Assembly: GCA_016193465.1 (NCBI GenBank)
Contig: JACPSE010000130.1
Span: 1-38,887 of the forward strand
Length of the DNA: 38,887 bases
Origin: Deltaproteobacteria bacterium
Lineage (GTDB): Bacteria > Desulfobacterota > Binatia > UBA9968
Direction: 5' to 3'
The notes beneath the pieces were generated by a model that was given only the letters and a program-made list of their open reading frames with translations, was not told the origin of the DNA and did no database searches. A program made the translations under genes and the position numbers. Each line of letters begins with the position of its first letter. Position 1 is the stretch's first letter. This document shows, piece after piece, positions 1,865-30,780 of the stretch.

Positions 1865-1914
1865 TCGATGGCCTTTGCCGGAGCGAGCGGTCGGCTACCT
1901 ACAACGGGCCCGTT

Positions 1915-2517: not shown

Positions 2518-2604
2518 GTTGTCTCCTCCCGGTAGTGTCGGCCTCAGGGAACGCGCCTTCGGCTGCGGCCGATGGGCCAGTACTTTAACCGAACCTTCCC
2601 GCTC

Positions 2605-4200
2605 CTACGTCCGCAGCCTCATTCGCGCCCCCCTCGGCCTCGTCTCAGTTGTGCCACTTTCTATCTGCGACCGCGCGCGCAGCTTAAACCTCTGGATTTT
2701 GCCTGTGACCGTCTTGGGCAGGTCGTCGACGAACTCGATCCAGCGCGGATATTTGTAAGGGGCGAGCTTGTTCTTAACCAGGGACCGGAGCTCTTCTTTA
2801 AGCCGGTCGCTCGATTCGTATTCGTGCTTCAACAAAACATAGGCTTTCGGTTTGATCAGCCCATCGTCATCGGCGTGTCCTGTGACGGCAGCCTCGAGAA
2901 CCGCAGAGTGCTCGAGCAGCGTGTTTTCGATCTCGATCGGAGAGACCCACATGCCCCCGACCTTCAGCATATCGTCGGAGCGACCGCAGTACCAGTAGTA
3001 GCCCTCTTCGTCGCGGTAATAGGTGTCTCCGGTCTTGAGCCATGCCCCCAGCATGGTTTTCTTAGTCTGCTCGTGCTTGTTCCAGTAGTACGGAGCGTTG
3101 GCGTCGCCCTTGACCAGGAGATTTCCCACCTGTCCGACCGGCACCTCCCGCCCCTCTTCGTCCACAATCTTGGCCTCAAACGCTGGGGTCACTTCACCGC
3201 TGCAGCCGGGCTTTACCCTGCCGGGACGGTTGGCAAGAAAGTCATGGGTTGCCTCCGTAGAGCCCACCACGTCGAGGAGTTCGTTGCCAAACTTCTGCTT
3301 CCATTGGTGGAATAAGGCCGGGGGGAGCGGCTCACCCGAGGAGAGGCAAATTCGGAGCGAGCTCAGGTCATATTTTTTTTCGACCCGCAGAAGCCGGGCA
3401 TAGAGCGTGGGCACCGAGAAGAAGAAGGTCGGGCGGTTTCTTTCTATCACCTCGAGGACCCTCTCCGGTTCCGGACGTTCAGGCCACAGCACCGTCGACG
3501 CGCCGAAGCGAAAGGGAAAATAGAGTGAGTTTCCTAAGCCGTAGGCAAAGAAGAGCTTCGAAGCGGAGAAACAGATATCATTCTCGGTCATTCCTAGCAC
3601 CGGCTTTACGAATAGGTCGGTGATCGTGATCATGTCATGGTGCAGATGGACAGCCCCCTTGGGCGATCCCGTGCTGCCAGAGGTGTACTGCCACATACAC
3701 ACGTCGTCCTTGCTCGTGGGCTCCGCTTCGAGCCTGGTCGAGGCCTTGGTCACTTGAGATTCGAAAGAGAGCGCCCGCCCTTCGGGCCTTCCCACCACCA
3801 GGACATGTTTCAGAAAACGCGAGCGCTCCCAGATTTGCCTCACTTCAGGGAGAACGGACTCGTGAACAATGAGGATCCTCGCTCTACTGTCCTGAATCAG
3901 GTATTCGTAGTCCTTGGGCTTCATCCAAGGATTGGTTGGGATGGGCACAGCGCCGATTTTGATCGCGCCGAAGAAGCTGAAGGCAAATTCGGGGGAATCG
4001 GGCAATACCAGCAGGACCCGCTGCTCGATCTCCAGTCCGAGATCTTTCAGGACATTGCCGGTTTGGTTGACCTGCTCGAAGAGCTCCTGATAGCTCAGCC
4101 GCTGGTCCAGATAGTAGATCGCAGTCTTTTTGCCCCGACCTTGGCTGATATTCTCGTCCACGAAGGTTGTGGCTGCGTTGTAGATATCAGGAAGGTCCAT
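2605..4200 (-). CDS. Benzoate-CoA-ligase-like acyl-CoA synthetase
   Basis: A 531-residue member of the ANL adenylating family, closest by motif to benzoate-CoA ligases. These activate aromatic or related acids with ATP and CoA in the cytoplasm. The ATP loop YTSGSTGSPKG is at 172-182, the GSTEATH motif at 313-319, TGD at 390-392, the hinge region YCGRSDDMLKVGG at 404-416, and the catalytic lysine is Lys501 in KTVTGK. The segment KLFFAYGLGNSLYFPF near 215-230 is typical of the benzoate-CoA-ligase branch. The C-terminal 20 residues are an Arg-rich extension. It lies between the aldehyde dehydrogenase and the aldolase on the same strand, which suggests activation of an aromatic acid released by those enzymes. 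The exact substrate is inference. Confidence 0.87.
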   Translation of the reverse strand: MDLPDIYNAATTFVDENISQGRGKKTAIYYLDQRLSYQELFEQVNQTGNVLKDLGLEIEQRVLLVLPDSPEFAFSFFGAIKIGAVPIPTNPWMKPKDYEYLIQDSRARILIVHESVLPEVRQIWERSRFLKHVLVVGRPEGRALSFESQVTKASTRLEAEPTSKDDVCMWQYTSGSTGSPKGAVHLHHDMITITDLFVKPVLGMTENDICFSASKLFFAYGLGNSLYFPFRFGASTVLWPERPEPERVLEVIERNRPTFFFSVPTLYARLLRVEKKYDLSSLRICLSSGEPLPPALFHQWKQKFGNELLDVVGSTEATHDFLANRPGRVKPGCSGEVTPAFEAKIVDEEGREVPVGQVGNLLVKGDANAPYYWNKHEQTKKTMLGAWLKTGDTYYRDEEGYYWYCGRSDDMLKVGGMWVSPIEIENTLLEHSAVLEAAVTGHADDDGLIKPKAYVLLKHEYESSDRLKEELRSLVKNKLAPYKYPRWIEFVDDLPKTVTGKIQRFKLRARSQIESGTTETRPRGARMRLRT

Positions 4201-4217
4201 ATCCTCGCTATGCTCGG

Positions 4218-4275
4218 AATCTCAAATTACAGATCTCAGATTAAATTTGAAATTTGCCATTTGAGATTTGAAATC
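4218..4275. repeat. Intergenic palindrome built from ATCTCAAAT words
   Basis: The arms AATCTCAAAT (4218-4227) and ATTTGAGATT (4259-4268) are exact reverse complements. The interior repeats similar words such as ATTTGAAATTTG. The 14-mer TGAGATTTGAAATC (4262-4275) recurs exactly at 19793-19806 in the atpH-atpA gap. It lies between the ligase and aldehyde dehydrogenase genes and may be a dispersed non-coding element. A role as an RNA hairpin is possible. Confidence 0.65.
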
Positions 4276-4286
4276 CCCAAAGGGGC

Positions 4287-5759
4287 CTATTCGCCGCCGC
4301 CGGCCTCGGATTGGGTTTCCGTCGCGATCACCACGGATTTCGCCTCCGTATAGTGTTCGATCGCCTCGCTGCCATGTTCCTTGCCGATGCCGCTTTGTTT
4401 GACTCCACCGAACGGCAATTCGTCATAGATGATCTGCGCCGAGTTGATCCAGGTATAGCCGGCCTCGATCCGCTCCGCAGCCAGCATGGCTCTATTAATG
4501 TCTCGCGTCCACACCGATGAGCCCAAACCGAAGATGGAGTTGTTCGCCTGCTCGATGGCATGATCCAGATCCTTAACCTGGACGATGGGAAGGGCCGGGC
4601 CGAAGCATTCTTCCTGCAGAATCCGTGAAGCCGGGTCGACGTCGGCGAGCAGCGTAGGCTGCAGGAAGAACCCCTTATCATAGTCGCCGCCTTTAGGCCG
4701 CTGGGCGCCGTAAAGCAATTTCGCCCCGCGCCTGACCGCGTCCTCGATCTGTTCTTCGACCTCCCGCCTCTGCTCCGCGGTGTGCAAAGGTCCCATCAGC
4801 GTGTCCGGCTTGATGCCGTTTCCGATCCGAAGTTTTTTCACTTTGTCTACCAGTTTTTCCATGAACAGGTCGGCGATTTTGTCGAACAGGTAAAGCCTCT
4901 TGACAGCAAGACAGGCCTGGCCGCAGTTGAAAAACCTTCCTACGGAGGCAGCGCTGACGGCCCGGTCCAGATCCGCGTCATCGCAGACGATCATGGGATC
5001 ACTGCCGCCCAATTCCAGGGTCACGTGTTTGAAGTCCTTGGCAGCGGACTGCATGACGTGTCTTCCCGTGTCGGTTGCGCCGGTAAAGCCGATTTTGCGC
5101 ACCGTAGGATTTACCAGCAGCTCCTCGCCAACGACGCTTCCCGGACCGGTGACAAGATTGATGACTCCTTTGGGACCTCCTCCTTCCTGAATCGCTTTGT
5201 CGATTGACTCGACACAACGAAGCGCGGTCAGAGGGGTCGTCCCGGCCGGTTTGACCACAACCGTATTGCCGGCCAAGAGGGCGGGTCCCAGCTTGTTGCC
5301 CATGAGCGACACGGGGAAGTTCCACGGCACGATCGCGCCGCAAACTCCCAGAGGCTTGCGCAAAATGAGACCGTGCCGCCCGTTGTCGAGCACCACGGCC
5401 CCGGTGCGCAGGCACTTCGCCATGCCGCCGTAATGATCCAGGGTGTGCACGAAGCGGCGGATTTCCAGAATCGACTCACGGATCGGTTTTCCCTGCTCGC
5501 GCGTGAGCAGGTTTGCCAGCTCCTTTTCTTGTTGGGTTACCAGCCGGCCGGCCTCGAGAAGAATGGCTCCGCGTTTAGCCGGCGCCATTTCAGACCATTT
5601 TTTCAAGGCCCCGGCGGCTACTGCTATAGCCCGACGGGCGTCATTTACAGTTCCCTTGGGTACGGTGTCCACGACCTCGCCGGTGGCGGGGTTTCGAACT
5701 TCGGTAGCTTGTTTGCTCTCCGAGTCCTGCTGCTCACCGGCTATGAGAAACTTCGCCAT
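4287..5759 (-). CDS. NAD(P)-dependent aldehyde dehydrogenase
   Basis: This enzyme oxidises an aldehyde to the acid with NAD(P). It has the length (490 residues) and motifs of the class 1/2 ALDH family: PWNFPVSLMGNKLGPALLAG near 145-164, the cofactor-binding FTGATDTGRHV near 225-235, the general-base Glu249 in VTLELGG, and the catalytic Cys283 in FFNCGQACLA. The frame is open for 55 codons upstream, but I chose the ATG at 5759 because a GGAGG ribosome site sits 6 nt before it and the protein then begins where family members begin. It is the first gene of a minus-strand group with the ligase and aldolase, and diverges from the molybdenum hydroxylase gene. An aldehyde-to-acid-to-CoA-ester sequence with the ligase is plausible. 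Confidence 0.9.
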   Translation of the reverse strand: MAKFLIAGEQQDSESKQATEVRNPATGEVVDTVPKGTVNDARRAIAVAAGALKKWSEMAPAKRGAILLEAGRLVTQQEKELANLLTREQGKPIRESILEIRRFVHTLDHYGGMAKCLRTGAVVLDNGRHGLILRKPLGVCGAIVPWNFPVSLMGNKLGPALLAGNTVVVKPAGTTPLTALRCVESIDKAIQEGGGPKGVINLVTGPGSVVGEELLVNPTVRKIGFTGATDTGRHVMQSAAKDFKHVTLELGGSDPMIVCDDADLDRAVSAASVGRFFNCGQACLAVKRLYLFDKIADLFMEKLVDKVKKLRIGNGIKPDTLMGPLHTAEQRREVEEQIEDAVRRGAKLLYGAQRPKGGDYDKGFFLQPTLLADVDPASRILQEECFGPALPIVQVKDLDHAIEQANNSIFGLGSSVWTRDINRAMLAAERIEAGYTWINSAQIIYDELPFGGVKQSGIGKEHGSEAIEHYTEAKSVVIATETQSEAGGGE

Positions 5760-5985
5760 AAAAGTCCTCCATTCTGACCTAGAATTTAAAAAACAATCAT
5801 TTTCATGGCAGGATGTCAAGAATGGATGCCGCGCCAGTTGACCCGATAGCGCCGCTTTGCTATTGACATGGGGTCCTTTTGGAGTTAATGGTTGTGCCCT
5901 TTTCCAGAAGCCGCAACTCAGCAATAACGGTCCGTCCTATGTCAGGAAATGGCTTAAAGATTTTCTCTGCGGGCGCTCGTTTCCG

Positions 5986-8295
5986 ATGATGGCCCGGACG
6001 CCACCCCCTTTTCAACTTCAGGTGGTCGGGAGATCGGTCACGCGCATCGACGCGCGTGACAAGGTCACCGGCGAGGCCCGATATTCGGCTGACTATCTGG
6101 AAGCAGAGGCTTTGCAGGGCAAGACGCTACGCAGCCCCTATCCTCACGCCGAAATCGTCGGGATCGACGCTTCGAAAGCCGAAGCGCTGCCCGGCGTGCG
6201 AGCGGTGGTGACGTTTCACGATGCGCCCGAGTCTCCGTTTGAGGAAGGTGACGAGAGCGTTCCGGAGAGCCCCGTTCAGCCGGTTTACGTTCTTAACCGC
6301 GTCGTGCGCCACGTGGGCGACGAAGTGGCGGCCGTCGCGGCCGACACGCTCGAGATCGCCGAGGAAGCGATGGGGAAGATTGAAGTTGAATACAAGATTC
6401 ATCCTTTTGTTCTGGACGCGGAGGCGGCGGTTCTACCCGGCGCGCCTTTGGTGCGCGGCGGAGGCAGGAACGTGGCCGGGAGGAAGCCGATCCTCCTGGA
6501 ACGGGGCGACGTTGTGGCGGGCATGGCTGAAGCCGATGTTGTGGTCGAAGGGACTTATCGCACTCAGGCAACGAGCCCACTATCGCTCGAGCCACGTTAC
6601 TGCGTCGCGCGATGGCAGGGCGGACGCCTGACAGTTTGGAAATCGAGCCGCAATGTCTACGGCGATCGCAGACGCTTGGCCAAGGTTTTTGGCCTGCCGC
6701 CCGAGGGGGTCCGTGTCATCGGCCTGTATTTGGGAGCGGGCTTTGGCGCCAAGGACGAGACGCGGCTTGCCGCGATCACGGCATTGCTGGCGCGGAAAAC
6801 AGGGCGGCCCGTGCGCATGGGATACACGCGCGAGGAGGAGCTGGGGTTCGGCAAATGGCGCCACGCGACGGTTAACCGAATTCGGATGGGCCTTAAGCGC
6901 AACGGCTCGATCATCGCCATCGATTCGAGGAGCGTGTTAAATACCGGGCCCTACGCGCCCGGATTCGGCGTGGCGGAGCGCCTCGGTCACGGGTTAACTT
7001 ACCTCTACACATGTGCCAACGCCCGTTTTGAAGGAAAAGTGGCTTTCACCAACAGCCCGGTGGCCGGCTCCTATCGCGGGCTGGGGGCGCCCCAGGCCCA
7101 TTTCGCCCTTGAGTCGCTGGTGGACGAGGCTGCCGAGCGTCTTGGGATAGATCCGCTCGAATTTAGAAAGCGCAATCATGTCCGGCCGGAGGGACAGGCA
7201 GGACATTACCAGCCGGGTGAGGAGCTGGTCCCGCCGCAGCCGATTGAGGGAGGCATCCCCTTCTCGAGTAACTTTCTGGCGGAGTGTCTGGAAGAGGGCG
7301 CCAAGAGAATCGGCTGGAAACCGCGGCCGCATGGGCCAAGAAAACTCAAAGTGAACGGCAGATACCGCGGCATGGGTATGGCGTGCTGTATCTACAAGAC
7401 CGGTCAGTCCAATTCGTCGGCCACCGTCAAGGTTAAAGCCGACGGCACTGCGGAGCTTTTCATGAGCATCATGGAGATTGGTCAAGGTGCCTGGACGATC
7501 CTCATGCAGATTGCAGCCGAGACCCTCGGACTCCGCTTCGACGACATAAAAGGGGTATTTGCCGATACCGAAACCACTCCCTTTTCGCACGGCACGTCGG
7601 GAAGCACGACGACCTTTACCTCCGGATTAGCGGCTCTGCGAGCGGCCAAGGATGCCAGACTGCAAATCTTGGAGACAGCCTCCCGCCTGCTCGAGGTTGA
7701 TGCCGGCGAGCTCGAGATCCGCGACGGCATGGTATTTGTGCGCCGCGCTCCGGATCAGCATCTCCCCCTAAGCCATATTGTCGCGCGGCGGGAAGGCCGT
7801 GAAGTCATCGGCCAGGCAAGCGTGCGCGCCGGGAGCAAAACGCATATTATCAACTCCTTTGCAGCCCACTTCGCCGAGGTTGAGGCGGATCCCGACAGCG
7901 GCGCGATCCGGGTTCTCAGGTATGTGGCGGTGCACGACTCCGGGCGCGTGGTCAATCCGGAGACTGCTTATGGGCAGATCGTGGGCGGCGTGGTCCAAGG
8001 ACTCGGCTACGCCCTGATGGAAGAGATTCCTCTCGACCCGGAAAGCGGCGCGCCGCAGGCGCTCAACCTGGACAGCTTTAAAATACCCAACCTGATTGAT
8101 GTGCCTTTGATCGAGCCGGTTCTGCTCAACCTTCCCGACCCGATCGGGCCCTACGGCGCCAAAGCCTTAGGCGAGCCTCCGCTCGTGCCTGTGGCCGCTG
8201 CCATTGCCAACGCTGTTTACGACGCCACCGGCGTGCGCATGCGCGAGTTGCCGATCACCGCTGAGAAAGTCCTGGCTGGCCTCAACGCAAGGTAG
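5986..8295 (+). CDS. Molybdenum hydroxylase large subunit (xanthine dehydrogenase family)
   Basis: This is the molybdopterin-binding subunit of the xanthine dehydrogenase/aldehyde oxidase family, about 769 residues from the ATG at 5986. The N-terminal hammerhead domain begins at VVGRSVTRIDARDKVTGEARY. The molybdopterin-site motifs are GAGFGAKDE, SYRGLGAPQAHFALES, EIGQGAWT and, near the C terminus, GAKALGEPP with the catalytic Glu. Enzymes of this family normally need an FAD subunit and a 2Fe-2S subunit; neither is nearby. The frame is open to a TTG at 5857, but the upstream residues do not look like the family. There is no clear ribosome site, so the start is uncertain. A TTGACA at 5863 may be the -35 of a weak promoter. 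It diverges from the aldehyde dehydrogenase. Confidence 0.85.
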   Translation: MMARTPPPFQLQVVGRSVTRIDARDKVTGEARYSADYLEAEALQGKTLRSPYPHAEIVGIDASKAEALPGVRAVVTFHDAPESPFEEGDESVPESPVQPVYVLNRVVRHVGDEVAAVAADTLEIAEEAMGKIEVEYKIHPFVLDAEAAVLPGAPLVRGGGRNVAGRKPILLERGDVVAGMAEADVVVEGTYRTQATSPLSLEPRYCVARWQGGRLTVWKSSRNVYGDRRRLAKVFGLPPEGVRVIGLYLGAGFGAKDETRLAAITALLARKTGRPVRMGYTREEELGFGKWRHATVNRIRMGLKRNGSIIAIDSRSVLNTGPYAPGFGVAERLGHGLTYLYTCANARFEGKVAFTNSPVAGSYRGLGAPQAHFALESLVDEAAERLGIDPLEFRKRNHVRPEGQAGHYQPGEELVPPQPIEGGIPFSSNFLAECLEEGAKRIGWKPRPHGPRKLKVNGRYRGMGMACCIYKTGQSNSSATVKVKADGTAELFMSIMEIGQGAWTILMQIAAETLGLRFDDIKGVFADTETTPFSHGTSGSTTTFTSGLAALRAAKDARLQILETASRLLEVDAGELEIRDGMVFVRRAPDQHLPLSHIVARREGREVIGQASVRAGSKTHIINSFAAHFAEVEADPDSGAIRVLRYVAVHDSGRVVNPETAYGQIVGGVVQGLGYALMEEIPLDPESGAPQALNLDSFKIPNLIDVPLIEPVLLNLPDPIGPYGAKALGEPPLVPVAAAIANAVYDATGVRMRELPITAEKVLAGLNAR

Positions 8296-8304
8296 TCATA
8301 CCCC

Positions 8305-8533
8305 TTTTGTGAATCTCAACTGTTTAACGGTTTTGCATGATGACATCTAAAAGGACCGGCCGTCCAGTGTCCTTTAGCGCTCGCAGCGCTCTTTTTAAGG
8401 CGTCGCCGAGCTCTCCAGGCTCGGTCACAGGCCCGAAGCTCTGGATATCGTACGCCTGAGCCAGGGTGGCGAAGTTTACTTCGGGCCTTTCCAATCGAGT
8501 CCCGACAGTTCGGTTTTCAACCGGGCGGCGGCG
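8305..8533. repeat. 229-bp direct repeat, left copy
   Basis: This stretch is 225/229 identical to 15516-15744 in the same orientation and without gaps. The differences are at 8322, 8423, 8499 and 8529. It contains the last 69 codons and stop of the thiamine-diphosphate enzyme gene plus about 19 nt beyond the stop. Together the copies bound a 7.2-kb block holding the flavoprotein-to-PrpD genes. Similarity ends abruptly on both sides. Confidence 0.95.
8324..8533 (-). pseudogene. 3' remnant of thiamine-diphosphate enzyme gene
   Basis: Read on the minus strand, this fragment encodes the C-terminal 69 residues and stop codon of the acetolactate-synthase-like enzyme that is intact at 15535-17301. 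The rest of the gene is absent. Its upstream part overlaps the 3' end of the flavoprotein gene in a different frame. It has no start codon or ribosome site of its own and is a by-product of the duplication that created the flanking repeats. Confidence 0.85.
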
Positions 8534-10011
8534 TTCTTTCCGGCGATGCGCCCGGTTACAGCACCCCGTGTAAGCCCGGTGCCGCCGGGGTAATTGTAAT
8601 AGAAAAACCCGGCGGTCAACTCTCCGGCCGCATAAAGGCCCGGGATGGGCCGATCCAGCCGGTTAAGTACCTCGCAACGGGGGTTGATCTTCAGGCCGCC
8701 ATAGGTGAATGTCAGCCCGCAGGTGGTGGCATACGCCAGAAAGGGTGGTGTATCAATCTTTTGCGCCCAGTTGGATTTCGGGGGATAGACTTCTTTTGTC
8801 CCTTTACCGTCGTGGATCACTTCGTTGAAAGGACGGTCCTCCATGACGCCGTCGTTGAACTCCTGAACGGTCTGCATCAGGACAGTCGAGTTGAGCTCGA
8901 GCATCTCGGCTAGCTCAGCGATGGAGTTGGCCGACACGGGTGTCGCCCCTTCATAGTCCAGGCGACCGAGAGGCCCCTTGACCTTAGCGTCAAAGATCTG
9001 GTAAGCGATGCCGCCTGGCTGTTTGAGGATCTCCGCCCCTATTTTTGCGTAGGTATAAGCACGAAAATCCTCGCCCTCGTCCAGAAAACGACGGCCTTCG
9101 GTATTGACCATGATCCCAAGGGTCCAGCCGTAGCGCTGTGTTGCATGGCGCCGGCTGCCCAGGTCGAAGAACGCCGCCTCATAGTCGTTCGCATCGGCGT
9201 CGATGGGCGTCGCGTGACCGCCGCTATAGTGGCCGAACGGCTGCGCCCCGATCTCTAACGCCATCTTGATTCCGTCTCCCGTGTTGTACTTGGTGCCCCG
9301 CACCTTGGCCAGATCCCAGCCGCTTCCCAGGTACTGAGCACGCAGGTCGGGGCTCGCCTGGAAGCCGCCGGCAGCAAGAACCACGCCTTTGCAGCGGATC
9401 TCCACGAGCCCTTCGGGGTTCTGAGCAACTACGCCACAGACCCAATTCCTGTCGTCGGTGATGAGACGAATGGCCGCGGTCTCGAACCGGACGTTGATTC
9501 CCCTCTGCTGGAGGATGCGATACCACATATTGACCAGCCCAGCGCCTCCATCTTTGGCACGAAGGAACTCACAGCCATGATGGAAGCGAAGGCGTCCGCC
9601 TTCCGGATTTGCAGCGCTGTACTGGATCTCCCAGTGGATGCCTAATTCTCGCATCCACAGAACCGTGGGGTAAGACTCGTTCACCAACAGTGCCGCCAGC
9701 TCGGGCACTGCCTTTCCCCGGGTCACGCGCATCACGTCCGCGTAAAAATCGTCCTTGGTGTAGGGAACGAGGTCAATCTTCTGCCATTCGCTTTCTGGCA
9801 CGTCCGGTAAGAGAGGTTTTGCGTCAGGTATACCATTGTATGTGTGGCGAAACCGAGCACCGGCGGTGTACCACGAATTCCCGCCTTTCTTGCCTTCCGG
9901 AGCCTTTTCCAGGACTAAAACCTTGGCCCCGGCATCATGGGCGGCAACTGCCGCCGCCTGGGCTGCATTCCCCAACCCGACTACAACCACGTCGTAGTTC
10001 ACCGTTTCCAC
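8476..10011 (-). CDS. TcuA-like FAD-dependent dehydrogenase (fumarate reductase flavoprotein family)
   Basis: An FAD-binding oxidoreductase of about 511 residues in the succinate dehydrogenase/fumarate reductase flavoprotein family, most like tricarballylate dehydrogenase TcuA. TcuA desaturates a CH-CH bond next to carboxylates. The dinucleotide fold is seen in YDVVVVGLGNAAQAAAVAA, followed by GGNSWYTAGARFR. The C-terminal FAD motifs are GLYAAGELTAG and YPGGTGLTRGAVTGRIAG. An AGGAGG site lies 7 nt before the GTG at 10011 and 4 nt before a TTG at 10014; I prefer the GTG. The last 18-19 codons (8476-8533) lie in the direct repeat and are a frame-shifted reading of the thiamine-enzyme 3' end, so the natural C terminus has been replaced. 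It diverges from the leuC-like gene. Confidence 0.85.
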   Translation of the reverse strand: METVNYDVVVVGLGNAAQAAAVAAHDAGAKVLVLEKAPEGKKGGNSWYTAGARFRHTYNGIPDAKPLLPDVPESEWQKIDLVPYTKDDFYADVMRVTRGKAVPELAALLVNESYPTVLWMRELGIHWEIQYSAANPEGGRLRFHHGCEFLRAKDGGAGLVNMWYRILQQRGINVRFETAAIRLITDDRNWVCGVVAQNPEGLVEIRCKGVVLAAGGFQASPDLRAQYLGSGWDLAKVRGTKYNTGDGIKMALEIGAQPFGHYSGGHATPIDADANDYEAAFFDLGSRRHATQRYGWTLGIMVNTEGRRFLDEGEDFRAYTYAKIGAEILKQPGGIAYQIFDAKVKGPLGRLDYEGATPVSANSIAELAEMLELNSTVLMQTVQEFNDGVMEDRPFNEVIHDGKGTKEVYPPKSNWAQKIDTPPFLAYATTCGLTFTYGGLKINPRCEVLNRLDRPIPGLYAAGELTAGFFYYNYPGGTGLTRGAVTGRIAGKNAAARLKTELSGLDWKGPK

Positions 10012-10153
10012 CAATTTTCCTCCTTCGAGATCCGTATCATTCTGCTCGTGAAAGTGTCAAGTGTTTGTAGGCTATTGTAATGCAAGTTGGGAAGTAGTAA
10101 TTTGCCCTGCGCCAGAGAAAAGTTAGGCAGAATTTTCAAGCGGGGGTGAGGTC

Positions 10154-11434
10154 GTGAGCCAAACCATGGCGGAGAAGCTCTTGTCCCGGCATAACCTAGC
10201 TGGGGTCCCGGTGAAAGCCGGGGATATTGTTGAGGCCAGGATTGATGGCGCGATGAGTCACTACAACTTCGTCGAGCCGGTGCACCAACTGGCGGTGCAG
10301 GCGGGCTTCCCGGAGGGCTTGCCGCGGGTGTGGGACCCAGATCGGATCTTTATCTTGCTGGACCACCACCAGCCGGCCCTCAGTCAGGAGCTGGCTGATG
10401 CAAACCAACTCATGCGCCGGCACGTAGAGCGGTTAGGCATCAAGTGCTTTCATGATGCCGAGCCGGGCATCGCTCACCAGATGATGGCTGACTACGGCCT
10501 GGCGCGTCCCGGTGAGTTGGTGGTGGGGAATGACTCGCACACTATTAGCTACGGTGCACTTAACGTTGGGAGCACCGGGATCTCCAGGGTAGACACGCTC
10601 TATGTGCTTCTGTTCGGTGAGCTGTGGTTCCAGGTGCCGAATTCAGTGAAGGTTGTCTTGGAGGGCCATCACCCTAACTACCCCATTGCCAAAGACATCA
10701 TTCTCTACCTGGCGGGCAAATACGGTGACGATTTTGCGGGAAGCATGTCCGTTGAGTACACTGGCTCCCTTGTTCCCCAGCTCAGCATTGCTAGCCGGAT
10801 GTGCCTCTCCGCCCACGGAGTGGAGGTTGGGGCCAAGTTTGCCTTATTCCCGGCTGACGAGAGGACTCGCGAATTTCTCCGGGGTCGCACAGATAAGCCT
10901 TACGAACCCTTGGAGGCCGACCCGGACGCCGAGTACGAAAAAGAGATCGTACTGAATGTAGACGAGATGCCCTTCATGGTAGCCAAGCCCCACCAGTTCG
11001 GCAACGTGGCCCCCGTGGATGAGGTGACAGGAATCAAAATTGTCCAGGCGCAGATCGGCTCTTGTGCCAATGGCCGCTTCGAGGACATTGAGATTGCAGC
11101 CCGGATACTTAAGGGTCGCAAGGTGGCAAAGGGGGTGCGCTTTATCATCTCACCCGCTTCCCAACAGGTTTATCTCCAATGTCTAAAGGCGGGGTTAGTG
11201 GAGTGGCTCGTGGAGGCGGGCGCTCAGGTTGTGACCCCGGGGTGCGGCGTCTGCCAGCCGAAGGTCGGGTTCCTTTCCGATGGAGAGGTTTGTATCACCG
11301 CAACCACACGGAACTATAAAGGGCGAAAGGGCAGCCTGAATGCCGAAATCTATCTTGCCGGTCCGCTCACCGTTGCCGCTGCAGCGGTGGCCGGAGAGAT
11401 CGTGAACCCAAGGGAGGTGTTCCGTGAGCTTTGA
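10154..11434 (+). CDS. LeuC-like large subunit of an aconitase-family hydro-lyase
   Basis: A 426-residue large subunit of the isopropylmalate isomerase/homoaconitase branch, which dehydrates and rehydrates hydroxy di- or tricarboxylates on a 4Fe-4S cluster. The three cluster cysteines are Cys304 (IGSCANGRFED), Cys364 and Cys367 (GCGVCQP). The active-site segment GNDSHTISYGALNVGSTGIS is at 125-144. The start is a GTG after a GGTGAGG ribosome site, and its 3' end overlaps the small-subunit gene by 11 nt. No leuA or leuB is present, and the neighbours are a TcuA-like dehydrogenase and a lyase-family gene. Catabolic use, such as hydration of an aconitate-like or dimethylmaleate-like product, is more plausible than leucine synthesis. 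The substrate is inference. Confidence 0.88.
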   Translation: MSQTMAEKLLSRHNLAGVPVKAGDIVEARIDGAMSHYNFVEPVHQLAVQAGFPEGLPRVWDPDRIFILLDHHQPALSQELADANQLMRRHVERLGIKCFHDAEPGIAHQMMADYGLARPGELVVGNDSHTISYGALNVGSTGISRVDTLYVLLFGELWFQVPNSVKVVLEGHHPNYPIAKDIILYLAGKYGDDFAGSMSVEYTGSLVPQLSIASRMCLSAHGVEVGAKFALFPADERTREFLRGRTDKPYEPLEADPDAEYEKEIVLNVDEMPFMVAKPHQFGNVAPVDEVTGIKIVQAQIGSCANGRFEDIEIAARILKGRKVAKGVRFIISPASQQVYLQCLKAGLVEWLVEAGAQVVTPGCGVCQPKVGFLSDGEVCITATTRNYKGRKGSLNAEIYLAGPLTVAAAAVAGEIVNPREVFREL

Positions 11435-11936
11435 TCTGAACCAGGTGATACGGGGTCGCGTCTGGAAATTCGGAGACTCGGTGGATACCGATGCCATCAA
11501 CCCCTATTACCTGTATCCCACTATGGAGGAATTGAAGAAGCACACGATGGAGTCGTATCGGCCGGAGTTTCCCAAGGAGGTCAAACCAGGGGACATCCTG
11601 GTGGCGGGGCGGAACTTTGGTTGCGGCTCTAGTCGTCCGGGTCTGGTGCTTCGTGAGGTAGGTATCGCGGCTGTTGTGGTGGAGTCCGTGTCCCGCTTAT
11701 TCTTGCGCAACAACATCTCCCGGGCCATGCCGATCTTTATGGCCCCAGGAGTGTCGGGCATTGTAAAGGATGGAGAGACCCTGGAGGTTGACTACGCGCA
11801 GGGGCTTGTGCGGAACCCTGCTACGGGCGCCAGCGTGGCGTTGCGCAAATTCCCGCCCTTGATTGAGAAAATTTTTCAAAGCGGCGGGCTCCTGGAGTTT
11901 GCTCGCCAGCGCTATTTGGCTGAGACAGCGCGGTAG
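11424..11936 (+). CDS. LeuD-like small subunit of an aconitase-family hydro-lyase
   Basis: A 170-residue swivel-domain partner of the preceding large subunit. Hallmarks are DTDAINPYY at 21-29, the substrate-loop sequence YLYP at 29-32, and the active-site loop GCGSSRP at 66-72. Family members usually read GSSRE there, so Pro replaces the Glu. Translation starts at a GTG inside the last codons of the large-subunit gene, which implies coupling and equal synthesis. The length matches the bacterial/archaeal LeuD2-type small subunits of about 165 residues. The altered loop and the setting argue for a substrate other than isopropylmalate. Confidence 0.87.
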   Translation: MSFDLNQVIRGRVWKFGDSVDTDAINPYYLYPTMEELKKHTMESYRPEFPKEVKPGDILVAGRNFGCGSSRPGLVLREVGIAAVVVESVSRLFLRNNISRAMPIFMAPGVSGIVKDGETLEVDYAQGLVRNPATGASVALRKFPPLIEKIFQSGGLLEFARQRYLAETAR

Positions 11937-11974
11937 TTATATAGAGAGCGCCAGCATCTTGGGGAGGCATCCTG

Positions 11975-12895
11975 ATGACTCAGCCTACGACTAAACTCAA
12001 AAAGCTACTTCATCGCAAAGATAAAGTCCTCGCCGTTCTGGGGGCGCCCAATGCCTTTCATGCGAGAATCATGGAAGCTAGCGGGGTCGAAGCCTGTTTT
12101 GTCGGAACCAACATCACTGGAGGAAACCATACCGGTCTGCCAGACCTGGGTGTGTTATCAATGTCGGAATGCGTGGAAATCGGAAAATGGATCGCCCGCA
12201 GTGTCAAGATTCCAGTCATTCTGGACGGCGATACCGGCCACGGCGGGATCATGGCTGTGCGCCGCTTAGTGCAAGAGTGCATTGATGCTGGCCTCGCGGG
12301 CCTGCGGCTCGACGATCAGCCGTTGGAGCAAAAACGTCGCACCCTTTCAGCGGGTATCGCAATCGTCTCTCGTGAAGAGGCCGTGGCGCGGTATCGGACG
12401 GCAGTGGATATGAAGGACGAGTTAGACCCCGATTTTGTCATCATGAGCCAGTGCTATGCGCGCGACGCGATTGGGGGCGGGTTGGCTGAGACCTTAAAGC
12501 GGCTGCGGCTCTACGAGAAAGAGGCTGGCGTGGACTGGGTGCAATTTGAGGCGCCTCACTCGATTGAGGAGATCAAGCAAGCACGCAAAGTGGTTAAAGG
12601 TTTTTTTTCCGCCATGAAGGGTCGTCTCCCCCGGGCCTTGACATTGGAAGAACACAAGGCTTTGGGGTTGAATGCCGCCTGGTACACTTTTCTTCCCGAC
12701 TACGTGATCAAGGCTGCCGCGTGGTCTTTCTTACGAGAGTTTCAAAGGAAGGGGATTGCGGCCTGGTATGAGTTTGTCGACAAGAGCCCTGATACTCCTT
12801 TTACGGGTGGCAAGGCGTGGGAATGGGAGGCGGCCGGCCTGGCAAAGCTGGCAGAGTTAGAGGCTAAATATTTTTCCAAGAAGAAACGGAGGTAG
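11975..12895 (+). CDS. Isocitrate-lyase/PEP-mutase family enzyme lacking the catalytic Cys motif
   Basis: A 306-residue TIM-barrel enzyme of the isocitrate lyase/PEP mutase superfamily, which makes or breaks C-C or C-P bonds next to carboxylates with Mg2+. The metal-binding DGDTGHG is at 84-90 and the LDDQ at 112-115. Where methylisocitrate and isocitrate lyases have K-R-C-G-H, this protein reads K-R-R-T-L (120-124), so the acid/base cysteine is absent. Superfamily members without it include decarboxylases and mutases. A GGGGAGG ribosome site precedes the ATG. It follows the leuD-like gene by 38 nt and precedes the binding-protein gene by 5 nt. It probably acts on the product of the hydro-lyase, as a lyase or an oxaloacetate-decarboxylase-like enzyme. 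Confidence 0.85.
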   Translation: MTQPTTKLKKLLHRKDKVLAVLGAPNAFHARIMEASGVEACFVGTNITGGNHTGLPDLGVLSMSECVEIGKWIARSVKIPVILDGDTGHGGIMAVRRLVQECIDAGLAGLRLDDQPLEQKRRTLSAGIAIVSREEAVARYRTAVDMKDELDPDFVIMSQCYARDAIGGGLAETLKRLRLYEKEAGVDWVQFEAPHSIEEIKQARKVVKGFFSAMKGRLPRALTLEEHKALGLNAAWYTFLPDYVIKAAAWSFLREFQRKGIAAWYEFVDKSPDTPFTGGKAWEWEAAGLAKLAELEAKYFSKKKRR

Positions 12896-12900
12896 AGTGT

Positions 12901-13929
12901 ATGAAAAAGACAATCTTTTTTCTATTCGTTTTTTTCCTGGCTGTTTCGAGAGTTGAAGCTCAGACCGATTTCTATAAGGGGAAGCAAGTGAAAATCGTGG
13001 TCGGGGCTGCTGCAGGCGCGGTTAGTGATCTGTATGCCCGTACCGTTGCCCAATATTTGCCTAAGCACATTCCCGGCAATCCAGATATGATTGTGCAGAA
13101 TATGCCTGGCGGGGGCAATGTTATCGCGGCTAACTACGTTTACAGCATTGCCAAGCCCGACGGACTCACCCTCGGGGCATTTCTGCCAGCCGTCTATTTC
13201 GAACAACTTCGCGGGCGCAAAGAAGTTCAGTTTGACTGGGCCAAGTTTGCCTGGATCGGTTCGCCCGAGGAAAACGACGAGGTACTGTCCGTAAGGTCAG
13301 ACACGCCCTATAAGACTCTGGCGGATATCCGCAAAGCCAGCGAGCCGCCGCGGTGCGGCTCCACAGGAATTGGATCCTCGACCTATTATTTTCCGAAGCT
13401 CTTGGAGGATGTGTTCGGCGTGAAATTTAACGTCGTCACCGGCTACCCAGGGGGGCGCGAGCTGGATTTGGCAATAGAGAGGAATGAGGTTCAATGCCGT
13501 GGCGGGACCATCAACGCTCTGTTCGGTCGCGACCCCTCACGGACGTGGGCTAAGACCGGATTCATTCGGATGCTTGTCCAGGGAGGGGCAAAACGGGATC
13601 ACAGGCTACCTGATACGCCTACGATCTGGGAGCTGATGAAGACGGAGAAGATCCCCGAGGCTAGCAGGTCGGTTGCTACGGTAATCCTTTCTCCAGGTAC
13701 TTTCGGTCGGCCAATAGTGGGAACCCCGGGTATTCCTGCGGATCGGATCACGGTTTTGCGCGAGGCCTACGCAAAGATGCTGCAAGATCCAGAGTTTTTA
13801 GCAGATGCTAAAAAAAGGCAGTGGGAAATAAATCCGATCAGTGGCGAAAGGTTGGAAGCCCTGGCAAAGGAAGTGATTAACCAGCCGCCAGAAGTCATCG
13901 AGCGGATGAAAAAAATCTTAGGGAAATGA
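12901..13929 (+). CDS. Tripartite tricarboxylate transporter substrate-binding protein (TctC/Bug type)
   Basis: A 342-residue periplasmic receptor of the TctC/Bug family, which presents carboxylates to a TctA/TctB membrane pair. Residues 1-21 are a signal peptide (KKTIFFLFVFFLAVSRVEA). The mature part opens with FYKGKQVKIVVGAAAGAVSDLYARTVA as a strand-loop-helix, followed by MPGGGNVIAANYVY near 69-82, both characteristic of the family. The AGGTAG ribosome site overlaps the preceding stop codon, so it is co-transcribed with the lyase. No TctA or TctB gene is in the window. Its place in the cassette suggests uptake of the di- or tricarboxylate that the flavoprotein and hydro-lyase process. Confidence 0.83.
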   Translation: MKKTIFFLFVFFLAVSRVEAQTDFYKGKQVKIVVGAAAGAVSDLYARTVAQYLPKHIPGNPDMIVQNMPGGGNVIAANYVYSIAKPDGLTLGAFLPAVYFEQLRGRKEVQFDWAKFAWIGSPEENDEVLSVRSDTPYKTLADIRKASEPPRCGSTGIGSSTYYFPKLLEDVFGVKFNVVTGYPGGRELDLAIERNEVQCRGGTINALFGRDPSRTWAKTGFIRMLVQGGAKRDHRLPDTPTIWELMKTEKIPEASRSVATVILSPGTFGRPIVGTPGIPADRITVLREAYAKMLQDPEFLADAKKRQWEINPISGERLEALAKEVINQPPEVIERMKKILGK

Positions 13930-13936
13930 AGATCCC

Positions 13937-13962
13937 GCGGTGGAAGATGGCACCGCTCTTTT
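13937..13962 (+). terminator. Possible intrinsic terminator
   Basis: GCGGTG (13937-13942) pairs with CACCGC (13951-13956) across an 8-nt loop, followed by TCTTTT. It starts 8 nt after the binding-protein stop codon. The stem is only six pairs and the T-tract short, so it may be partial. The next gene begins after a 129-nt gap. Confidence 0.35.
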
Positions 13963-14058
13963 CCCAATCTCACTCCTAGCAGGAAGATTCCACTTATAGC
14001 CTCTTAGCGAACCTCTAAGAAGGCCATTTGGAGTTCACAGAGAAAGGGGAGAGTCGTG

Positions 14059-15408
14059 ATGGCGACTGCGCAAGGTCCGACAGCGCGGTTCTGTGAGTGG
14101 GCGTGCTCTACCAGCTATCAGGACCTGCCTGAGGAGGTGCGCAAGGAAACGGTGACCCTCCTCTATGACATGGTGGGGGGGCTTATTGCCTGCTCTACCC
14201 TGCCTACCTGTCTGCCGGTTGTGGAGTTGGTGAAGGCCCTTGGGGGACGCCAGGAGTGCAGCATCGTGGGGCATCCAGTGAAGACGTCGGTGTTGCATGC
14301 CGCCCTAGCTAACGGCACCATCGGTCACGGTGATGAGGTGGATCCTACCGGGCAAAGAGGCACCGGCCACTTTGCTGCCGTGACGGTGCCCACGGCCTTA
14401 TGCATGGGCCAGTATGTGGGTGCCTCCGGCCCTGAGTTTCTGAGAGCTCTGGCTGTGGGCTCCGAGATGGCGGCCCGCACGATCAGCATCCTGCTTCACG
14501 CCGTGGATCACGCACGGCGAAACTTCGCTGACACTGTGGGTGCCGCGATGGGAGCCGCGGTCACCGCCGGTCTCCTCCTGGGGCTGGACGCTCGTCAAAT
14601 GGAGCACGCGCTCGGGTTAGCAGCTTGCCACGCCTGTGGGCTGAACTCCGTGTACCACGATCCCACCCACGACTCTAAGTCTCTCCAGCGCGGTGCAGCG
14701 GCCTATGGGGGCACTTTGGCTGCCCTGCTGGCCCGGCGAGGGTTTCACGGGCCTCCCGAGGTCTTAACTCAGGAGCACGGCCTCTTTGATGCCTTCGCCG
14801 GTGCCGCCGATTTGGGGAAACATGTAGTGGAGGAGTTGGGGGAAACCTACCTGATGCGGCAGGTTGCCTACAAGAGGTTTCCCGTGGGGGGCCCGAACCA
14901 GCCGGCGCTCTGGGCGTTCTTGCAGATTATGAAAAAACACAAAATCCGGGCTCAGGATATTGATTGCGTGGAGGTAAGTCTCTCCCGGGGCGCCTTTCAT
15001 ACGGTGACCACTCTGGAGCACCCGTCGGTTCATATGCCCACGGTTCTTTCCCTGGCAGCGGTCTTCGGGGATGTGACATTTCAGCACATCCATGAAGAGC
15101 GTTACTCTCAGGACCCGCACGTGGGAGCCTTCAAGGAGCGCGTCACGCTCCTGCCCCAGCCGGGGTTGGCAACTCCAGGACAGCGCCTCGATATCCAGCT
15201 CCGGGTGCTGACCCGGGGAGGGAGTGTACTCACCCAGGAGACGGGCTATCCCCTGATGGATGAGGAGGAATTGCGGCAGAAGTTCCGTGCGCTGGCAGGC
15301 TTGCGGGCAACGCAAGAGAAAGTGCTAGAATTGGAACAGAAGCTCAAAGGCATCGAGAGGGTGGATAACGTGGCGCCCCTGGTCAGTGAGCTTGAGATGG
15401 CATCCTGA
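14059..15408 (+). CDS. MmgE/PrpD family protein
   Basis: This roughly 449-residue protein belongs to the MmgE/PrpD family, whose characterised members dehydrate 2-methylcitrate or isomerise related acids such as aconitate. Family features are the all-helical first domain (SYQDLPEEVRKETVTLLYDMVGGLIACS), ANGTIGHGDEVDP near 82-94, and the KRFPVGGPNQPALWAFLQIMKK region near 275. A GGGGAG ribosome site lies 7 nt before the ATG at 14059; a GTG directly upstream is a poorer start. It ends the cassette bounded by the 229-bp repeats. With the hydro-lyase it could handle isomers of the same tri- or dicarboxylate. The specific reaction is not readable from sequence. Confidence 0.83.
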   Translation: MATAQGPTARFCEWACSTSYQDLPEEVRKETVTLLYDMVGGLIACSTLPTCLPVVELVKALGGRQECSIVGHPVKTSVLHAALANGTIGHGDEVDPTGQRGTGHFAAVTVPTALCMGQYVGASGPEFLRALAVGSEMAARTISILLHAVDHARRNFADTVGAAMGAAVTAGLLLGLDARQMEHALGLAACHACGLNSVYHDPTHDSKSLQRGAAAYGGTLAALLARRGFHGPPEVLTQEHGLFDAFAGAADLGKHVVEELGETYLMRQVAYKRFPVGGPNQPALWAFLQIMKKHKIRAQDIDCVEVSLSRGAFHTVTTLEHPSVHMPTVLSLAAVFGDVTFQHIHEERYSQDPHVGAFKERVTLLPQPGLATPGQRLDIQLRVLTRGGSVLTQETGYPLMDEEELRQKFRALAGLRATQEKVLELEQKLKGIERVDNVAPLVSELEMAS

Positions 15409-15515
15409 TCGCCCGAAGATACTGATGCCCGACCGTAGAACAATTCAACATAGGACACTTTATCAATATAGTACCTAAAAGCAGTTACAATGACAGTTTG
15501 GTGTGGCAATTCCTT

Positions 15516-15744
15516 TTTTGTGAATCTCAACTCTTTAACGGTTTTGCATGATGACATCTAAAAGGACCGGCCGTCCAGTGTCCTTTAGCGCTCGCAGCGC
15601 TCTTTTTAAGGCGTCGCCGAGCTCTCCAGGCTCAGTCACAGGCCCGAAGCTCTGGATATCGTACGCCTGAGCCAGGGTGGCGAAGTTTACTTCGGGCCTT
15701 TCCAATCGAATCCCGACAGTTCGGTTTTCAACCGGGCGGTGGCG
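15516..15744. repeat. 229-bp direct repeat, right copy (in functional gene)
   Basis: This partner of 8305-8533 spans the intact 3' end of the thiamine-diphosphate enzyme gene and 19 nt beyond its stop codon. Because the full gene continues from it, this copy is the original and the left one is the duplicate. Recombination between the two would remove 7,211 bp and leave this gene intact. Confidence 0.95.
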
Positions 15745-17301
15745 GTCCAAAGCGACGACGCGCTGGTGTTCTTCATCGTTGTAATAGGAACGGTTATTGA
15801 AAACGATCATCAGCAGGGGGATGTCGTAATGGGAAGCGGTCCAGAGAGCGCTCGGGCCGAAAAGAAAGTCTCCATCCGGCTGAACGCCGACGCAGAGCTT
15901 CCCCGAATGCTTCAGCGCCAGGGCCGCACCTAAAGAAATCGGCAGTCCCACGCCCACGCCGCCATGCCAGCGTCGCCCCACAAACTGGTTAAAGTGGCGA
16001 CAGTCCAAAAAATGCTTTTCCTTGAGGCCGCTGCTACTGTGAGTCAGGACCCAGTCCTCACCTTTGAGAGCCTGCGCCATCTCGGTCGCGAGCCGCGCCA
16101 TCGATATGGGCTTTTCGTCCCACTTTTGCTTCGTCTCTTCAGCCAGCGCGGCCTGGAGTTCCGACCGAATGGTCTGTATCTGGGCGCGCCGTTGCTCGAT
16201 TTCAGCTCCCATCTTTTCCAGGGCCCTCTTTTCGTCCTTGAGCCGGCCCAAGAGCTCCGGCAAAAAGATGCGCGTTTCCGCCTGAATCGCAAGGTCCACT
16301 TGAGCCAGCTTGTCATAATCCTGGGCCCAGCTTTTGATCAGCAGATTCTTGACGCTGACGTGGATAACTCTGGCATCCGGAGAAAGAAGAGGCAGAGGTA
16401 TCCGGTCAGAGCTATCGTTTTTTCGCTCACTCAGGGCGCCGAAGAGATCGGCTACATCGAGCGCCAAAACGAGGTCGGCTCGCGCCAAGACGGCCCCTTC
16501 GGCGCCGGTCAGGTTCAGCGGGTGAAGAAAAGGAAAATTGAGCCTTCCTCCACGGTCCAGCACCGGAATAGCGAGCAGTTCCGTCAGTTCGAGCAAGGCA
16601 TGGAATCCTTGCTCGGTCCTGCCCACGCAATCGGCCACGATGACAGGCCACTTCGCCTCAAGGAGCCAGCGCACAGTCTTCTCAAAGCCTTCTTCGCTAG
16701 ACTGCAGCGGGAGAGGCGCCGGATAGCGGCTTAGATCAGGGAGCGGAATCTCTTCCGTCATGCGACTTTCCTGGAGCGCTGCGTCATAGCACAGGTAAAC
16801 CGGCGCTTGGGGTTCCGCCACGGCGAGCCTGTAAGCCCGGATGAAAGATTCAGGAATGCTCGCGATGCTTGCAGGCTGGTCATCCCATTTGACGTAATTC
16901 CTTACCTGCTCTGCCTGCACCAGCGCGGTATGCACCCAGTCGGCTCCCGACCTTCGTTGCGACGTGTCCATGGGACCGGTGCCGCCGAGAACCAGCACCG
17001 GCACGCGACTGCTCCATGCGTTGTAGATTCCCATCGTGGCGTGCTGCAGACCGACGATGTTATGAACAATGGCAGCCATAGGCTTCCCGGTGACGCGCGC
17101 GTAACCAAAGGCCATGGAAACAGCGATTTCTTCGTGACAGCAGAGGACTATCTCCGGAGCCTTATTGCCGCCATAGTTGACCAGCGAGTCGTGAAGCCCT
17201 CGGAAAGAGGCTCCAGGATTGAGGGCGACGTATTCGATTGTGAAAGCCTTGAGGAGATCGACGATCAGGTCGGAGCCGTACGCGGGTTTTTTCTCTACCA
17301 T
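15535..17301 (-). CDS. Thiamine-diphosphate-dependent enzyme, acetolactate-synthase-like
   Basis: A 588-residue ThDP enzyme with the three-domain layout of acetolactate synthase and benzoylformate decarboxylase. It would decarboxylate or ligate a 2-keto acid. The catalytic Glu is in CHEEIAVSMAFGYARVTG near 57. The cofactor motif runs from PDGDFLFGP (about 475) to FNN (about 503). A coiled, charged insertion lies near 370-400 (EKMGAEIEQRRAQIQTIRSE). The frame is open 56 codons further upstream, but a GGAGG ribosome site precedes the ATG at 17301 and family similarity starts there. Its 3' 210 nt are duplicated at 8324-8533. It diverges from bactofilin. No regulatory subunit is present, so a biosynthetic IlvB role is unlikely. 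Confidence 0.85.
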   Translation of the reverse strand: MVEKKPAYGSDLIVDLLKAFTIEYVALNPGASFRGLHDSLVNYGGNKAPEIVLCCHEEIAVSMAFGYARVTGKPMAAIVHNIVGLQHATMGIYNAWSSRVPVLVLGGTGPMDTSQRRSGADWVHTALVQAEQVRNYVKWDDQPASIASIPESFIRAYRLAVAEPQAPVYLCYDAALQESRMTEEIPLPDLSRYPAPLPLQSSEEGFEKTVRWLLEAKWPVIVADCVGRTEQGFHALLELTELLAIPVLDRGGRLNFPFLHPLNLTGAEGAVLARADLVLALDVADLFGALSERKNDSSDRIPLPLLSPDARVIHVSVKNLLIKSWAQDYDKLAQVDLAIQAETRIFLPELLGRLKDEKRALEKMGAEIEQRRAQIQTIRSELQAALAEETKQKWDEKPISMARLATEMAQALKGEDWVLTHSSSGLKEKHFLDCRHFNQFVGRRWHGGVGVGLPISLGAALALKHSGKLCVGVQPDGDFLFGPSALWTASHYDIPLLMIVFNNRSYYNDEEHQRVVALDRHRPVENRTVGIRLERPEVNFATLAQAYDIQSFGPVTEPGELGDALKRALRALKDTGRPVLLDVIMQNR

Positions 17302-17391
17302 GGATCCTCCGCTAGCGATGACGCGCTGGACCGGCTTGCCGGCAGTAACTTTTTTATGTTTCATCGAATTTGTATGGCCGGCGTCCTGCCA

Positions 17392-17421
17392 GATATACGC
17401 TTGCCAGGGTTTTTGAGTCAA
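17392..17421 (-). promoter_or_regulatory. Candidate promoter of the thiamine-enzyme gene
   Basis: On the minus strand TTGACT (17421-17416), an 18-nt spacer and TATATC (17397-17392) give a reasonable promoter. It would start transcription near 17385, about 84 nt before the ATG at 17301. Confidence 0.4.
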
Positions 17422-17462
17422 GACTGATGGTAGATGGATCTTTTTCAACGCTCTGGTCTCTT

Positions 17463-17491
17463 TTGACAATGGTCGCCCTCAATGCTATAGG
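17463..17491 (+). promoter_or_regulatory. Sigma70-type promoter for the bactofilin-atp operon
   Basis: TTGACA (17463-17468), a 17-nt spacer and TATAGG (17486-17491) match the pattern seen at 821-849. The predicted start near 17498 leaves a leader of about 34 nt that contains a run of nine Gs. It is the only clear promoter before the ATP synthase genes. Confidence 0.6.
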
Positions 17492-17531
17492 AAAATTCTG
17501 TCCGTGTCGTAGGGGGGGGGATCTTGTTATC

Positions 17532-19714: not shown

Positions 19715-19769
19715 AGAGCGAGGAGATTGCCTGGAAATACCTCTCAAGGCCGATGCTGGCCCTTCGGGA

Positions 19770-19810
19770 TCTCAAATCTCAAATTGCAAATCTGAGATTT
19801 GAAATCTGCG
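19770..19810. repeat. Palindromic word-repeat element between atpH and atpA
   Basis: TCAAATCTCA (19772-19781) and TGAGATTTGA (19793-19802) are exact 10-bp inverted arms around an 11-nt loop, with further copies of the same words on each side. TGAGATTTGAAATC (19793-19806) is shared with the element at 4262-4275. The transcript could fold into a hairpin ahead of atpA. Confidence 0.65.
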
Positions 19811-30004: not shown

Positions 30005-30085
30005 CGTGCTCGTGTTCGGAAAAATCAAAAGTCGAAGCATCCGGTCCGATTTTGCCTCTCTCCACGAGCAAGAGCCACGAGCACG
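30005..30085. repeat. Palindromic word-repeat element before the 92-residue gene
   Basis: CGTGCTCGTG (30005-30014) and CACGAGCACG (30076-30085) are perfect inverted arms, and CCACGAGCA occurs twice on the right side. AAAATC and GATTTT form a smaller pair inside. The design of short words reiterated into a loose palindrome matches the elements in the atp operon. Confidence 0.5.
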
Positions 30086-30110
30086 GACACGCAAAGGAGG
30101 AAAAGCCCAG

Positions 30111-30731: not shown

Positions 30732-30747
30732 AATTGTCTCCTTCAAT

Positions 30748-30780
30748 TTGACAGTAGCACTTCTACTGTGTCGCTGTCAA
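30748..30780 (-). promoter_or_regulatory. Promoter with overlapping dyad for the orphan antitoxin
   Basis: On the minus strand TTGACA (30780-30775) and TACTGT (30756-30751) are spaced by 18 nt. They are overlaid by two dyads: ACAGTAG/CTACTGT (30751-30757 and 30763-30769) and TTGACAG/CTGTCAA (30748-30754 and 30774-30780). This is the layout expected for autorepression by a DNA-binding antitoxin. Confidence 0.5.

Follow-up and report, generated by a model that had tools for sequence, protein, structure and literature searches.

Genes of the Locus

The DNA considered here, referred to as the window, is a stretch of 38,887 nucleotides that makes up one whole contig of the draft assembly (4.5 Mb, 238 contigs) of a bacterium from an uncultivated lineage (Desulfobacterota, Binatia, UBA9968). 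It contains two near-identical direct repeats, one of which is the 3′ end of a gene for a thiamine diphosphate (ThDP)-dependent enzyme, and between them lie six genes that an earlier note had described as a 7.2-kb catabolic cassette. The origin of the second copy of this gene end is the subject of the present analysis. The repeat copies and the genes around them are as follows (G, C, and L numbers stand for genomes, contigs, and loci).

5857..8295, plus strand: xdh, xanthine-dehydrogenase-type large subunit, molybdopterin-binding; homologous from about 6016
8305..8533, minus strand: left repeat copy, lying between xdh and tcuA; ThDP gene end duplicated in headless form; 225/229 identity
8476..10014, minus strand: tcuA-like FAD dehydrogenase gene; NCBIfam NF006130, above cut-off
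10154..11434, plus strand: leuC, LeuC/aconitase-family large subunit; family profile matches
11424..11936, plus strand: leuD, LeuD/DmdB-family small subunit; family profile matches
11975..12895, plus strand: PrpB/isocitrate-lyase-superfamily lyase gene; family profile matches; adjoins left-flank genes in G014, G011, and G017
12901..13929, plus strand: tctC, TctC-type receptor; family profile match; adjoins the lyase gene in G011 and G017
14056..15408, plus strand: prpD, MmgE/PrpD-family gene; family profile match; nearest relatives are two paralogs on contig C35 of the same genome
15516..15744, minus strand: right repeat copy, the native 3′ end of the ThDP gene (last 69 codons, stop codon, and 19 bases past the stop); frame kept in four homologs
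15535..17469, minus strand: ThDP-dependent enzyme gene; 644-codon open reading frame (ORF); best NCBIfam match PRK08327, below its cut-off

The true start of the ThDP gene is probably near 17304, as its homologs match only from about residue 55. The families to which the six genes between the repeats belong (a TcuA-type dehydrogenase, a LeuCD/DmdB-type dehydratase, a PrpB/isocitrate-lyase-type lyase, a TctC receptor, and a PrpD-family enzyme) suggest the handling of tricarboxylates or branched dicarboxylates, and the six may form one pathway. An equivalog cut-off is passed by one of them, tcuA (NF006130), while leuC and leuD pass subfamily cut-offs, and a literature search for dimethylmaleate hydratase together with dimethylmalate lyase found no paper.

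The Repeated Gene End

The two copies (8305–8533 and 15516–15744) are identical at 225 of 229 bases, ungapped and in direct orientation, at a start-to-start distance of 7,211 bp, exactly as had been reported earlier. Relative to the right copy, the left copy differs at positions 8322, 8423, 8499, and 8529, and the longest exact run is 100 bases. Since position 8529 falls where the sequence already follows tcuA, the stretch that was copied amounts to about 224 bases with three differences. The outer end of the left copy is sharp to within a few bases: homology of xdh to its counterpart in G005 stops at 8300 and the copy has started by 8305.

Such a pair is far beyond chance in a comparison of 26 loci that each measure 8 kb or more and, with the window, total 434 kb. 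This yielded three pairs of at least 100 bases and at least 88% identity, among which that of the window (97.8% over 232 bases) alone exceeds 90%, the other two being direct repeats of 88.6 and 89.1% identity. The 229-base repeat occurs at two places in the 4.5-Mb assembly (E 0.001), both inside the window, and when the DNA of the right copy was used to search the family genomes, the only matches were these two places and the ThDP homologs of G010 (66%) and G015 (68%). A 238-contig draft and a near repeat of 229 bases are the classic setting for an assembly error in which two separate places are joined through the repeat. Given that internal differences limit exact runs to at most 100 bases and that both flanks match the gene order of relatives, such a misjoin is quite improbable here.

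The earlier view that the right copy is the real gene end and the left a headless duplicate holds, not only because the frame of the right copy is kept in its homologs. Of the three differences, one can be polarized: the right copy and all four homologs encode Ile at a site where the left copy encodes Thr, and this makes the left copy the derived one and the right copy its source. The other two differences are uninformative. The left copy is not simply dead, as the tcuA-like ORF reads into it in another frame, takes its last 16–18 codons from it, and stops inside it.

Each copy lies between convergent genes and has a plus-strand hairpin and T run. The repeat was considered as a shared transcription terminator and this was rejected, with folding no better than that of shuffled sequences (z −0.09) and no clear enrichment of terminator-like sites in the region (15 versus 12.1, standard deviation 3.6). 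Base composition was uninformative as a mark of foreign origin, the GC content of the block (0.53–0.62) overlapping that of the flanks (0.55–0.61).

What Is Extra Relative to Related Genomes

The surroundings of the interval are conserved among relatives, and the comparison defined the following features.

890–5924: left-flank genes, conserved; NMT1-type receptor, class II aldolase type, AMP-ligase, and aldehyde dehydrogenase
5824..17456, no strand: interval that is extra relative to relatives, whose homology ends at 5823 and resumes at 17457–17459 (six contigs that reach both flanks)
from about 17457: right-flank genes, conserved; bactofilin and ATP synthase

A search with ATP-synthase subunits gave matches in 22 of 24 genomes, and contigs of 12 other family members were compared. 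Six of these 12 reach both flanks, and in them the interval between the aldehyde dehydrogenase and bactofilin genes measures 4.9 kb (G002, of the same genus), 1.5 kb (G012), 1.7 kb (G006), 1.8 kb (G010), 2.0 kb (G013), and 7.7 kb (G007), versus 11.6 kb in the window. The intervals of G002 (of which 67 bases are masked), G012, G006, and G010 contain no match (E 0.01) to xdh, tcuA, leuC, leuD, the lyase gene, tctC, prpD, or the ThDP gene, and those of G013 and G007 contain none of the eight at E 1e-5, except for a ThDP paralog (29% identity) in G007. Orthologs of all eight genes from xdh to the ThDP gene are thus absent from six out of six contigs, and hence the extra unit is the whole 11.6-kb interval, including xdh and the ThDP gene, and not the 7.2 kb between the repeats. 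What the relatives have in this place differs from one to the next (an amidohydrolase, a weak Xre-antitoxin match, a glyoxalase, an AMP-ligase, a MATE pump, and a sulfatase-modifying type). The contigs of G003, G005, G009, G004, and G008 end before the aldehyde dehydrogenase gene, and G011 has other genes for 12 kb upstream of bactofilin.

These comparisons bear directly on the model proposed in the earlier note, in which a convergent xdh/ThDP site received a cassette running from tcuA to prpD and the gene end became duplicated, and on a variant of it in which a circle carrying that end was integrated by a single crossover. The geometry fits such a model, in that deletion between the repeats would leave xdh beside an intact ThDP gene. 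The six contigs that reach both flanks, however, lack orthologs of the supposed host genes xdh and ThDP as well as of the cassette. Nor could an older xdh/ThDP pair, which removal of the block was expected to restore, be found in 25 family genomes including that of the window itself, and neither was an empty site with a single repeat copy; both negatives are weak, as many contigs end nearby and four of the six xdh orthologs lie at contig ends. Six other genomes carry these orthologs (E at most 1e-200), and none has a ThDP match of that strength on the same contig. In G008, G010, G004, and G023, the xdh match is truncated or stops no more than 150 bases from a contig end, and the gene downstream of xdh is visible in the other two, being an ORF without Pfam or ThDP match in G005 and an antitoxin-type gene in G021.

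Two segments of the window past the ATP-synthase genes (30396–30791 and 33169–33493) have 80 and 76% DNA identity, respectively, to pieces of the G002 interval between the aldehyde dehydrogenase and bactofilin genes, and this placement beyond the ATP-synthase genes indicates that the area has been rearranged. In addition, 4229–4267 and 19748–19808 are partly inverted copies of each other that both match one short piece of the G006 interval (L104), and they represent a dispersed A+T-rich repeat.

A Patchwork of Gene Histories

The genes of the interval do not have the shared history of a single unit, as their nearest relatives differ gene by gene. The xdh gene is 88% (amino acid) and 86% (DNA) identical to that of G005, a member of another genus. 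Between these two genomes the bactofilin/ATP-synthase DNA is 70% identical, and this difference suggests that xdh was acquired by transfer. The tcuA gene is nearest to one in G007 (78%) and has two paralogs in its own genome (75 and 73%). The best identities of leuC and leuD are 58 and 53%, in G015 and G008, the nearest relatives of prpD are those on C35 (61 and 60%), and the ThDP gene is nearest to its homologs in G010 and G015 (73%), where in both cases a gene for a solute-binding protein follows.

The counterparts of the lyase gene in G014 (79%), G011 (75%), and G017 (71%) adjoin the same aldehyde dehydrogenase gene in the same relative orientation, directly in G011 and separated from it by an amidohydrolase gene in G014 and G017, and in G011 and G017 the lyase gene is followed by tctC. 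These neighborhoods are without xdh, TcuA, or the repeat. Left-flank genes in the same genomes are 70–85% identical, which resembles the values for the lyase and suggests that the lyase gene and tctC have long accompanied the left flank. This companionship is not universal, since a partial lyase gene in G019 (on a 3.7-kb contig) is adjoined by an amidohydrolase gene rather than by left-flank genes, and the six contigs that reach both flanks have no lyase ortholog in the interval. Because the lyase gene (with tctC in two cases) adjoins the left flank in three relatives, it is unlikely that the six genes came as one block, and the claim that 8305–15744 is one inserted unit is not supported. Taken with the comparison of flanks, the separate affinities of the genes and an apparent lack of integrase or transposase among the 39 ORFs scanned, this makes insertion of a cassette at an xdh/ThDP site improbable.

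The neighborhood of tcuA also counts as evidence of a patchwork. Among 10 distinct tcuA orthologs outside the window, seven are followed by a gene for an electron transfer flavoprotein (ETF)-beta type protein (C38, G007, G004, G008:C178, G023, G017, and G010:C16), and no such gene was found after tcuA in the other three (C234, G010:C347, and G008:C632). This count derives from 14 loci, three of which were dropped as the same place or genome seen twice (L034, L062, and L063, the latter two judged duplicate views because their match values are identical), while L105 (48%) was set aside for its distance. The place after tcuA that the ETF-beta-type gene usually takes is occupied in the window by the ThDP gene end. 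The TcuA-type dehydrogenase family apparently includes an ETF-linked form. Genes of this type adjoin both ETF-type beta and alpha genes in L045 (6067–11397), L062 (6274–9536), L063 (4132–7533), L143, L144, L145, L147, L148, and L152, and in L045, L143, and L152 they are preceded by a gene for a CCG-domain iron-sulfur protein. A literature search for tricarballylate dehydrogenase together with electron transfer flavoprotein found no paper.

Search for Mobile-Element Signatures

Some mobile elements insert into the 3′ ends of protein-coding genes and restore them (icd/e14 type), and the left and right copies could accordingly be the borders of an element remnant that used the ThDP 3′ end as its attachment site and has since lost its integrase. 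The window resembles such elements in that each border of the block has a copy of the gene end, in direct orientation and with the gene intact, and differs from them in that neither integrase or other element genes nor an empty site were found. The Pfam scan covered 39 ORFs of the window, which holds 84 ORFs of at least 100 amino acids, many of them overlapping. Among the ORFs scanned there was no phage or conjugation gene and, in agreement with the earlier note, no transposase or integrase; specifically, the six genes enclosed by the repeats and the genes next to them include no transposase, site-specific recombinase, or other element gene by Pfam. Of 13 inverted pairs of at least 14 bases in 8200–15900, none joins the two ends of the block as the terminal inverted repeats of a transposon with target-site duplication would. 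Inside the copies, each has one inverted pair of 10 bases and the right copy has a second. The window is also without any tRNA or Rfam match that might serve as an insertion site. The block has no match in a phage collection; 17 records of a plasmid collection match it, none over 80% of its length, and the eight matches listed cover 2–8% of the block, six of them being annotated as tcuA. A literature search on gene-end islands found no paper. An integrative-element remnant is therefore very improbable as the source of the repeat.

Origin of the Left Copy

The edges of the left copy are defined by two junctions.

8296..8304, no strand: junction at which the xdh end meets the left copy; xdh homology to G005 ends at 8300
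8527..8536, no strand: junction between tcuA and the ThDP gene end; short imperfect shared sequence, as aligned with the tcuA paralog of the same genome on C234 and with the right copy

Homology of tcuA to its relatives starts at 8527–8528 in four loci and at 8520 in one. Judged from the C234 paralog, the sequence shared at 8527–8536 is at least 2 and up to about 8 of 10 bases, as would be expected of illegitimate joining. In addition, the copy is headless, lies downstream of its parent, and is in direct orientation, with a novel junction that connects a point in the middle of a gene to a point downstream, which is what a tandem duplication starting in mid-gene would produce. The reading favored here, to which about even confidence is attached, is that the left repeat is the scar of a local illegitimate duplication in a patchwork catabolic cluster and not an attachment site.

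Three steps would lead to the present arrangement. Genes of different origin were gathered between the aldehyde dehydrogenase gene and the bactofilin and ATP-synthase genes, a step that the comparison with relatives supports. A tandem duplication would then have run from about 15747 in the ThDP gene downstream through prpD, tctC, the lyase gene, leuD, and leuC as far as the tcuA 3′ end, with the few bases shared at 8527–8536 serving as the joint. The ThDP gene would thereby have stayed intact, and a headless copy of its end would have come to lie behind tcuA. Finally, a deletion ending beside xdh would have removed most of the redundant second unit and left the gene end of about 224 bases. The direct orientation and the headless copy downstream of an intact parent are features of segmental tandem duplication remnants, and the short shared sequence at the junction may be another; here no other part of a second unit is left, and the duplication is inferred.

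The nearest rival is that the left copy is templated filler, a repair polymerase having copied about 224 bases of the nearby ThDP end while xdh and tcuA were being joined, by template switching as in the microhomology-mediated break-induced replication (MMBIR) model. In favor of this, the limits of the left copy fall at the edges of the neighboring blocks (xdh homology stops at 8300 and that of tcuA starts at 8527), and junctions with microhomology and repeated template switches are on record for amplifications in starved E. coli (PMC3161906). The junctions described there share with the window the few common bases and the small segment copied at a complex junction, and they differ in coming from starved E. 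coli amplifications, while the window shows an end product only (PMC3161906). Filler alone does not predict the direct orientation or the start in mid-gene, and it is rated as possible though unlikely.

Several points weigh against a tandem duplication. No second copy of prpD through tcuA is present in 7000–17500 and the final deletion is unseen, the tandem step is indistinguishable on present data from a short copied filler, and what is shared at the junction is a short, imperfect sequence for which a paralog had to serve as reference. Relatives have neither xdh nor prpD beside the ThDP end, and either gene could be its older neighbor. Two further headless copies from the same genome, described below, are imperfect parallels: the one on C35 is without the last ~42 codons of its parent and so is no strict gene end, and for the other the longer copy, at 30006–30389, may itself be a gene remnant.

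The left copy is most likely a remnant of local duplication, an ordinary type of genomic scar, and not the border of a mobile cassette. The two copies could in principle still recombine, deleting or re-amplifying the 7.2 kb. The junction is readable, and it shows the gene-by-gene assembly of a catabolic cluster beside core genes in an uncultivated lineage. It also provides a caution that direct repeats of gene ends should not be taken as cassette borders until the gene order of relatives has been checked.

Other Headless Copies

Two more headless direct copies, each downstream of a longer copy, were found in 148 kb of the same genome, and these were counted in favor of duplication, although the counts are low and it was the repeat that led to the choice of the window. 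By comparison, the loci of other genomes (287 kb) contain two pairs of at least 45 bases and at least 88% identity within 10 kb, one of them direct and the other inverted. With the left copy of the window, this gives three headless downstream copies in 148 kb, and on this basis one might envisage a lineage-specific process that repeatedly copies gene ends past a neighboring block, the copies serving as live recombination handles by which the 7.2-kb block is amplified or dropped; this idea is highly doubtful.

The first of the additional pairs is on contig C35 (L115), where 3132–3826 and 3998–4692 form a partial gene duplication of 695 bases (89%), the shorter, headless copy lying downstream of a 458-codon ORF with a match to the UGSC family. 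The second is in the window itself, where 30312–30388 and 30849–30925 are a direct pair of 77 bases (92%); the longer copy ends the ORF at 30006–30389, which has no Pfam match, and the copy at 30849–30925 lies beyond a minus-strand gene with a weak Xre-antitoxin match (30396–30746). A fragment copy is also near an Xre-like gene in G002 (L101, 10710–10760). There, the Xre-like gene is followed by an ORF with masked bases (L101, 10172–10687) that by eye is similar to a RES-domain toxin; the window has no such ORF at the equivalent position. A PIN-domain gene (Pfam PF01850; 31263–31781) lies near the Xre-like gene of the window.

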